Translations under genes and position numbers: made by a program
From: Pseudooceanicola nanhaiensis
GTDB taxonomy: Bacteria > Pseudomonadota > Alphaproteobacteria > Rhodobacterales > Rhodobacteraceae
Assembly: GCF_020171315.1 (NCBI RefSeq)
Contig: NZ_JAIUZP010000006.1
Coordinates: 434,001-498,000, forward strand
Length of the DNA stretch: 64,000 bases
Direction of reading: 5' to 3'
In this document: one piece after another, positions 1,790 to 57,484 of the stretch
How positions within the stretch are numbered: the stretch's first letter is position 1
Layout of the letters: each line of letters starts with the position of its first letter
The notes under the pieces: generated by a model
The model's input: the letters and a program-made list of their open reading frames with translations, nothing else
Database searches by the model: none
Told to the model about the DNA's origin: nothing

Positions 1790-1921
1790 CCGGATTTTTC
1801 GAAAAATCCGGTCCGGAAAATGCGCATTTTCCGGACACCGCCCGAGAGGACATCCCAAACCTCTCCCCGCGCACCGAAAATTCTTCGAAGAATTTTCCCA
1901 AGAATTTTCGAAAATTCTTGG
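1790..1921. repeat. Palindrome cluster A (four perfect palindromes)
   Basis: Four perfect palindromes: 1790-1811 (half-site CCGGATTTTTC), 1811-1836 (half-site GTCCGGAAAATGC), 1876-1897 (half-site GAAAATTCTTC) and 1898-1921 (half-site CCAAGAATTTTC). The first two abut and the last two abut, with about 40 GC-rich bases between the pairs. Three of the four are centred on TTCGAA. Bases 1876-1921 are identical to 15119-15164. Related units lie at about 10.6 and 57.4 kb. Nothing here encodes a transposase. Confidence 0.9.
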
Positions 1922-10499: not shown

Positions 10500-10848
10500 G
10501 ATCCCTCCTCACAGGTCAAATCCGCCGCATGGTAGACCGCCGTGCCGCTCCGCCGCAATTGCCGATCCGCATGGCCTTGGGGCAGCCGGTGCCGCGCTGC
10601 CCGGAATTTTCGAAAATTCCGGTCCGTTTTCTTCGAAGAAAACGGGTATCGCCGCCGCCCGTGCGTCCCTCGCCGTCAGAGCGCGACGCCCCGGCCCGCG
10701 GCGAAGATTTTTAAGGGAAAAATCTTCCCAAAAGTCTTTGCAAGACTTTTGCCCGCCCGGGGTCCGGCCTTGCAATTCCCCGCCCCGTGGCACAGCTATC
10801 TGGGAAAGACGCATTCCCGCGTGACTTCCCCCGAGACGGAGCAGACAG
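10500..10848. other. Divergent glcB/pepN upstream region with palindrome cluster B
   Basis: A 349-base region between two divergent starts that must hold both promoters. About 150 bases of it are the AT-rich palindromes of cluster B. I could not confidently place -35/-10 boxes. The small frames here are composed of repeat sequence. Confidence 0.75.
10601..10751. repeat. Palindrome cluster B (two perfect palindromes plus two loop hairpins)
   Basis: Perfect palindromes at 10601-10622 (half-site CCGGAATTTTC) and 10624-10645 (half-site CCGTTTTCTTC), both centred on TTCGAA. They are followed by an inverted repeat with arms GAAGATTTTT and AAAAATCTTC (10703-10727) and another with arms CAAAAGTCTT and AAGACTTTTG (10729-10751, 3-base loop). 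The first pair is nearly identical to 57441-57484. This copy lies between divergent promoters, so it cannot act only as an end-of-operon terminator. Confidence 0.9.
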
Positions 10849-14960: not shown

Positions 14961-15030
14961 CCCCGCTTCATCTTTCCCCCAATACTCCGGGGGAATTGGC
15001 CCCCAAGGGGCCAAGGGGGCAGAGCCCCCC
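14961..15030 (-). repeat. GATATTTGGG-family repeat, reverse copy
   Basis: Begins CCCCGCTTCATCTTTCCCCC and continues through AATACTCCGGGGGAATT into G-run/C-run stretches that can pair (AGGGGGCAGAGCCCCCC). It is the opposite orientation of the copy at 15221-15280. Confidence 0.65.
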
Positions 15031-15164
15031 GGACTTTTCGAAAAGTCCGGTCCGGAAAATATACATTTTCCGGTCAGCGCGCGGTTCGACCGGAGCGCGC
15101 CCCTCACCGGTGGGCACGGAAAATTCTTCGAAGAATTTTCCCAAGAATTTTCGAAAATTCTTGG
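15029..15164. repeat. Palindrome cluster C (four palindromes)
   Basis: Palindromes at 15029-15050 (half-site CCGGACTTTTC), 15052-15073 (arms CCGGAAAAT/ATTTTCCGG around ATAC), 15119-15140 (half-site GAAAATTCTTC) and 15141-15164 (half-site CCAAGAATTTTC). The architecture matches cluster A, and the last 46 bases are identical to 1876-1921. The variable base of the first palindrome is C here, with G as its partner on the other arm. Confidence 0.9.
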
Positions 15165-57440: not shown

Positions 57441-57484
57441 CCGGAATTTTCAAAAATTCCGGTTCGTTTTCTTCGAAGAAAACG
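57441..57484. repeat. Palindrome cluster D (two palindromes)
   Basis: 57441-57462 (arms CCGGAATTTT/AAAATTCCGG; centre CA rather than CG) and 57465-57484 (half-site CGTTTTCTTC). It is nearly identical to the first half of cluster B, including the GCGCTGC lead-in and the GGG after it. It lies 18 bases past the moaE stop, between convergent genes. Confidence 0.9.

Follow-up and report, generated by a model that had tools for sequence, protein, structure and literature searches.

Recurrence and covariation of the palindrome

Positions 1790 to 1811 of the window (the 64,000-nucleotide stretch of the Pseudooceanicola nanhaiensis genome that was analysed) hold a palindrome of the frame CCGGA-x-TTTTCGAAAA-x'-TCCGG, which raises the question of whether it belongs to a dispersed repeat family and, if it does, what keeps its two halves complementary. 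A sequence-only reading had listed four copies in the window with the x/x' letters T/A, A/T, C/G and A/T, the only break of symmetry being the centre CA of the copy at 57441, and had proposed selection on a cruciform, an RNA hairpin or a dimeric protein site. When the 64-kb window was searched with the pattern CCGGANTTTTCGAAAANTCCGG, allowing up to three mismatches, matches occurred at exactly 1790, 10601, 15029 and 57441, and 100 shuffles gave none; both the letters at x and x' and the broken centre were as described (Table 1). The four window copies are by themselves weak proof, and the case is carried by wider counts.

Across all 30 contigs of the genome (4.82 Mb), a pattern search yielded 12 exact copies of this unit, hereafter R, and 42 with up to three mismatches, and not four only, which bears out the view that R is a repeat family. 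The letters at x and x' were complementary in 31 of the 31 copies with at most one mismatch and in 39 of the 42 with at most three, compared with 22 and 29 in the best of 20,000 shuffles, although such copy counts overstate the number of independent events through shared descent. Because x and x' were both N in the search pattern, the complementarity count is unbiased there, the remainder of the unit being required. Each of the three copies with a non-complementary pair carries two or three other mismatches. Neither outcome named as counting against the sequence-only reading, four copies in all or an abundance of copies left uncompensated at x, was observed. The letter at x partly tracks the neighbouring unit, being A in six of seven R units beside unit T, and C in three, T in two and A in two beside unit S. 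The central position was asymmetric in 18 of the 42 copies, mostly with CA or TG replacing CG. Among 373 perfect units (from this genome, from its sister, the congener G297 that is about 93% identical to it, and from the named units), the central dinucleotide was CG in 267 and CA or TG in 77, as if a CG centre were decaying by transition.

Table 1. Palindromic units and the adjoining module III repeat in the window
Feature	Sequence	Positions	Strand	Remarks
Unit R (feature under study)	CCGGATTTTTCGAAAAATCCGG	1790..1811	.	x/x' = T/A
Unit S, module I	CCGGAAAATGCGCATTTTCCGG	1813..1834	.	1 nt past R
Unit P, module II	GAAAATTCTTCGAAGAATTTTC	1876..1897	.	
Unit Q, module II	CCAAGAATTTTCGAAAATTCTTGG	1898..1921	.	
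Unit R		10601..10622	.	x/x' = A/T
Unit T	CCGTTTTCTTCGAAGAAAACGG	10624..10645	.	
Q-like unit, 5-nt loop	GAAGATTTTT-aaggg-AAAAATCTTC	10703..10727	.	sister sequence there non-homologous
P-like unit, 3-nt loop	CAAAAGTCTT-tgc-AAGACTTTTG	10729..10751	.	sister sequence there non-homologous
Module III repeat	CTTCATCTTTCCC ... GGGGGCAGAGCCCC	14966..15028	.	adjoins module I; also beside other copies
Unit R		15029..15050	.	x/x' = C/G; sister orthologous site A/T
Unit S	CCGGAAAAT-atac-ATTTTCCGG	15052..15073	.	
Unit P	GGAAAATTCTTCGAAGAATTTTCC	15118..15141	.	
Unit Q	CCAAGAATTTTCGAAAATTCTTGG	15141..15164	.	
Unit R, centre CA		57441..57462	.	x/x' = A/T
Unit T	CGTTTTCTTCGAAGAAAACG	57465..57484	.	moaE (minus strand) ends 17 nt further on

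Architecture of the arrays

The window R is one of several kinds of unit and has hairpin neighbours, the 22-nt palindromes standing in tandem at a pitch of 23 nt, usually two or three to a run. A motif-free census of 1.264 Mb of the genome found 50 end-to-end AT-rich hairpin pairs, compared with none in a Markov control. Five kinds recurred, P and Q forming module II, and R, S and T forming module I. Module I combined two different kinds in all 23 typed cases (7 R-S, 7 R-T and 9 S-T), three more doublets being typed only in part. For 15 of the 35 arrays a single gap contained both modules, in either order and separated by 27 to 101 nt; the module II hairpin was untyped in two of the 15. A further repeat, module III, was often seen near hairpin modules (window 14966-15028, L001, L004, L005, L011 and L012) and also adjoins R in L169 (Maritimibacter alkaliphilus); its elements are CTTCATCTTTCCC..., GGCCCC...GGGGCC and GGGGGC...GCCCCC.

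In a unit, each arm contributes about ten paired positions and the dinucleotide between the arms is free, its commonest setting being T-NN-A; units are mostly separated by one nucleotide. The 11th pair from the centre was Watson–Crick in 88 and 82%, and the 12th in 28 and 29%; since pairing falls between the two, the unit boundary is sharp at 22 nt. The centre-to-centre distance was 23 in 48 of 68 neighbours in this genome, in 37 of 53 in the sister and in 128 of 151 at 80 loci among the matches listed, counts that admit neighbours with up to two mismatches, some of them by chance. Runs of four or five units made up 8 of 91 at the same 80 loci among the matches listed. The pair closing the centre was complementary in 351 of the 373 units (shuffle maximum, 326), mostly as T·A and sometimes as G·C, and the central dinucleotide showed no symmetry past its composition (273 vs. 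a mean of 269.6). In the census of this genome, loop size varied between a wholly symmetric centre and 8 nt, with the arms still matched.

Perfect palindromes, commonly with TCGA mid-unit, and a 23-nt pitch of about two helical turns would suit operator-like sites for a homodimeric DNA-binding protein, but covariation at x/x' is not to be expected of half-sites that are independent, the arm spacing shifts by several nucleotides among copies and the arm sequence differs among kinds. Because the half-sites covary and loops of up to 8 nt separate matched arms, a dimeric site is disfavoured, and we regard it as highly improbable. This speaks against one of the three targets of selection proposed from the sequence, the others being a cruciform and an RNA hairpin; the constraint on symmetry and the free centre are borne out. 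It is the pairing of the arms, not a dimer site, that is kept.

Copies in other genomes

At least 114 loci outside this genome were found when a single genome from each species was scanned, and the carriers among the matches listed included Tabrizicola, Rhodobacter, Sulfitobacter, Xinfangfangia, Pseudogemmobacter, Roseovarius and several alphaproteobacterial MAGs. An R-H2-H1 array of the Rhodobacteraceae kind was also seen at L238 (CP059262.1), in a MAG titled Exiguobacterium profundum, a record that is probably mislabelled. At the 114 loci among the matches listed, x and x' were complementary in all 116 copies, and all four pairs were used. The first 80 loci listed contributed 81 of 81 complementary copies (A/T 36, G/C 35, C/G 7 and T/A 3), compared with 48 in the best of 10,000 shuffles, and the other 34 listed contributed 35 of 35 (A/T 19, G/C 12, C/G 3 and T/A 1). 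Two exact-frame copies uncompensated at x were found among the matches listed for the Rhodobacteraceae sample, in G239 and G251.

Neighbours taken without choice, at the fixed offsets −23 and +23, were perfect over eight pairs at 36 and 36 of the 81 copies listed, whereas the control mean was 0.04 per offset. Among the matches listed, 73 of 81 copies had a perfectly paired neighbour 22 to 24 nt away, as had 29 of 35 in the further loci. The order R-H2-H1 is the usual run in Tabrizicola and relatives among the matches listed, and was found in 39 of 42 gap-free aligned triplets drawn from these matches, a chosen set in which R and near-palindromic neighbours were demanded. Within the triplets, 97.5% of 1134 cells were paired and 15 of 27 pairs had changed on both sides (64 such cells); none of 500 shuffles matched any of five measures, and slid controls were far lower. 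The Roseovarius locus L195 reads R, S-like, T-like, and a single 23-nt unit, the middle one, was gained or lost between the related loci L183 and L230. In view of these two cases, the doublets of P. nanhaiensis may be read as triplets minus one unit.

Changes in place between related genomes

When the 35 arrays of this genome were compared with the sister, 18 could be aligned, 15 had no flank match in the stretches compared and 2 were not collinear. We kept 47 of 54 hairpins as homologous and dropped five that were gapped and two that were non-homologous. Change then affected 16 of 888 arm sites, 20 of 187 centre sites and 756 of 3123 other alignment columns, the last being mostly intergenic and in part poorly alignable; before cleaning, when mis-paired and non-homologous hairpins were still counted, arm change stood at 53 of 1010. 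Among the arm pairs, 12 had changed on one side and 2 on both. Because one-sided changes outnumber two-sided ones, either the arm letters matter as well or the copies are homogenised. Both two-sided changes were double transversions that restored the pairing; window 15029 shows C·G to A·T, and C5:417261 shows G·C to T·A. Uncompensated decay was seen in the sister R of one orthologous pair (L011 in this genome, L091 in the sister).

Among the matches listed, x/x' had switched between A·T and G·C beside matching neighbours in three comparisons of orthologous arrays (L165/L227, L168/L231, and L172 with L226 and L221), and three further switches stood beside a differing neighbour unit (L180/L188, L185/L192 and L205/L223), where replacement of the unit is possible. 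Larger changes occurred as well. Module II at window 10703 is not homologous in the sister, one module having been replaced. At C6:297721 the sister gap is 117 nt longer and contains modules III and I, which are missing from this genome, a difference of whole modules gained or lost. The array gap at C6:324954 measures 152 nt here and 2675 nt in the sister.

Pairing in DNA or in RNA

The arms could pair in the transcript or in the DNA itself. The first possibility, a structured RNA selected on the sense transcript only, as a 3' UTR stabiliser or an attenuator, agrees with copies lying after stop codons and between cistrons and with the tandem stem-loops predicted for one triplet (−40.8 kcal/mol), but G·U was no commoner than A·C. 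Sense-strand mismatches in same-direction gaps comprised 3 G·U and 4 A·C in units with a single mismatch, which are small numbers, and 6 G·U and 10 A·C when two-mismatch units, and with them chance neighbours, were included. Across the 42 triplets, wobble cells outside the outermost pair of H2 numbered two, and that edge pair had 13 wobble and 14 unpaired cells, of which 5 were G·U and 6 A·C when read by the sense strand. On these few cases G·U is not preferred over A·C, and selection on the sense RNA alone is decidedly unlikely in our judgement. From the P-Q alignment A1, RNAalifold recovered the Q stem alone, the P columns being probably misaligned. Two-base loops suit DNA better than RNA, which rarely closes so short a loop. 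The G·U counts and the covarying closing pair lean towards a DNA hairpin, upkeep by template switching or use of both strands.

The same observations bear on a DNA-level selfish element, in which tandem hairpins or cruciforms would serve copying by an enzyme still to be identified, and the symmetry would persist either through a mobilisation step that requires a flawless DNA hairpin or through template switching during replication, which recopies one arm onto the other. In favour of such an element, G·U is not preferred, the covarying pair sits beside a 2-nt centre and both double changes in the sister are double transversions, which have no wobble intermediate; the three clean switches elsewhere are between A·T and G·C, however, and could have passed through G·T. 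Template switching is able to make and keep perfect stems, as described in sections of PMC8794818. By itself, however, it leaves unexplained the fixed pitch, the contrast between 1.8% change in arms and 24% in the surroundings, and the complete lack of copies in divergent gaps among the matches listed from other genomes; nor was any loop inversion found in the 14 loops that had changed between this genome and the sister.

Position relative to genes

Genes were called with home-made callers, a GC3 caller at first and then a codon model, which replaced it for the counts of place; 7 of 10 window frames tried had Pfam support, one of the seven, a glycosyltransferase, scoring below its cut-off. With the codon-model caller, 17 of the 35 arrays lay in convergent, 14 in same-direction and 4 in divergent gaps, compared with 124, 387 and 174, respectively, for all gaps of at least 50 bp in this genome, arrays included (n = 685). 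The arrays thus lie mostly in gaps with a gene end (31 of 35), and 12 of the 14 in same-direction gaps were nearer the upstream stop. One window array occupies a divergent gap, between the genes for malate synthase G and an M1 aminopeptidase. Among classified copies listed from other genomes, 45 were in convergent, 61 in same-direction and none in divergent gaps (n = 106). The first 80 loci listed supplied 31, 43 and 0 (74 of 81 copies having two flanking genes), compared with 57, 212 and 75 for the gaps around these loci (n = 344), and the further 34 listed supplied 14, 18 and 0 (32 classified out of 35 copies). Of those 43 same-direction copies, 30 were nearer the upstream stop, again among the matches listed.

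Enrichment in convergent gaps is what ordinary intrinsic terminators, acting bidirectionally between convergent genes, would give. A T-run, however, followed the array at 7 of 392 ends, compared with 23 of 392 control stretches, and one array stands between rpoB and rpoC: the hairpin pair of L162 starts right after the rpoB stop and aligns to the same gap in L184. The arrays are no terminators of the usual kind, and we find that explanation scarcely credible. A role at transcript ends would be the likeliest use of the arrays; the place behind genes could also be simply where insertion is tolerated.

Distribution and the mobilising gene

Within the genus, occurrence is patchy. Unit Q, with up to one mismatch, was found at 60 places in this genome and at 49 in G297, and at none in the remaining 20 genomes of the genus (two of them 66 and 77% complete), which gives 2 carriers of the family in 22 genomes. 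As the genus includes twenty members without unit Q, the family is dispensable. The AT-rich hairpin pair at the locus of window 15029 was absent from 20 relatives, one of these loci being cut by a contig end. In 300 kb drawn from three congeners there was no adjacent palindrome pair of any sequence, against an expectation of about 9.5 at the density of this genome (P ~8e-5). Adjacent perfect palindrome pairs reached 31.6 per Mb in this genome, 41.1 in the sister and 50 in G121, the last from only 100 kb. Across the Rhodobacteraceae, exact R occurred in 10 of 295 genomes, including this one. The pattern TTTCTTYRAAGAAA occurred in 45 of 295, the matches numbering 37 in this genome, 23 in G121 and no more than 8 in any other, and a backward-read control pattern matched 10 of 295, so that single matches mean little. 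This pattern of many or few copies points to spread in bursts.

The REP-linked Y1 transposase family, PF01797, had no match in this genome or in 10 of the 11 carriers, and matched 5 of 14 control genomes. G044 is the sole carrier among the 11 with a match (G044:C33:2681-3037, E 3.8e-33). For the DNA-level selfish element set out above, whose place at gene ends would reflect tolerated insertion, this counts against: no mobilising gene was found by a search that covered PF01797. On its side are the steep difference in unit Q between the two carriers and their 20 congeners, the 300 kb of three congeners free of adjacent palindrome pairs, and the gain or loss of whole modules (297721) or single 23-nt units (L183/L230). 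Taken together, we consider that element somewhat unlikely as the full account.

Proposed explanation

The reading we prefer, and to which we give about an even chance, is that the arrays are a dispersed non-coding family that resembles REP/BIME and is separate from it, kept as adjacent stem-loops at transcript ends or between cistrons. The array would have spread non-autonomously, in hosts with no Y1 transposase of their own, and copies would have been retained where transcripts end or between cistrons. There they may form neighbouring stem-loops that impede 3' exonucleases or Rho and, whichever strand is read, would thereby determine where transcripts end and the relative levels of expression. 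Template switching, in which one arm serves to recopy the other, may help to keep the pairing near-perfect.

A combined account, which we hold tentatively and think rather unlikely, sees in the arrays an undescribed non-autonomous DNA element that an enzyme with no relation to RAYTs spread in bursts, its units kept perfect at the DNA level and serving as stem-loops behind genes. The element would consist of a few different perfect 22-bp hairpins in tandem at a 23-nt pitch, perhaps ancestrally a triplet of the form R-middle-end, of which P. nanhaiensis would keep two units. Perfection might come from hairpin recognition or from template-switch repair, and the product might act as stacked stem-loops even inside the rpoB-rpoC gap.

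If this view of the family is correct, the genomes of some Rhodobacteraceae carry perfect palindromes in adjacent pairs, about 30 to 50 per Mb, that are named neither by Rfam (window scan) nor by the literature among the matches listed. They would offer a natural system for how short repeats spread without RAYT, and a natural test of whether compensatory changes in perfect stems need two selected steps or result from a single template switch. The arrays suit the latter question because most of those that could be compared are common to two species about 93% identical. The way transcript ends are annotated in these bacteria would be affected too.

Comparison with known repeat families

Rickettsia palindromic elements, Neisseria NEMIS and pneumococcal RUP are dispersed, non-coding and hairpin-forming, and are longer single elements; to our knowledge, none has tandem 22-nt units. 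With compensatory arm changes and a free centre, the arrays have the marks of a hairpin-forming element, of DNA or RNA. Rfam at gathering score gave no match in the 64-kb window, the four exact unit strings had no literature match, a search by which differently worded papers would be missed, and no such family was described in Rhodobacteraceae among the literature matches listed. In agreement with the sequence-only reading, which had recognised no named family, the searches made found none, and the family is apparently unnamed. The families of a stem-loop survey (PMC2267715) are likewise repeated stem-loops in intergenic DNA; in a table passage of the survey, the alphaproteobacteria named are Brucella and Rickettsia, and Rhodobacter and Silicibacter have 0 occurrences. 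Quasipalindrome correction by template switching likewise yields perfect arms and double changes, as portions of PMC8794818 describe, but it is a process and not a repeat family, and it leaves the pitch, the kinds and the place unexplained.

The closest likeness is to REP/BIME. A REP of the GTAG/CGTC-tagged type was rejected, the tags being not clearly enriched beside arrays: near the ends of 196 arrays we counted GTAG 7, CTAC 2, CGTC 12 and GACG 9 times, compared with 3, 3, 15 and 13 in controls. A RAYT-driven REP is disfavoured by the lack of the Y1 transposase in 10 of the 11 carriers. Strains with rayt genes have about ten times the REPs of strains without, according to a passage of PMC2817692, so that a missing transposase is alone no bar to REP. 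In the broad sense, the arrays share the character of REP/BIME, being many dispersed, grouped, intergenic palindromes with few copies between divergent genes. According to passages of PMC3733652, REP/BIME are short palindromes in many copies, mostly between convergent or same-direction genes and grouped with variable spacers, and the two are alike as many short, mostly intergenic palindromes in dimers and larger groups. The arrays described here differ in being near-perfectly symmetric, in their fixed 23-nt pitch and in the mixture of unit kinds within each run.
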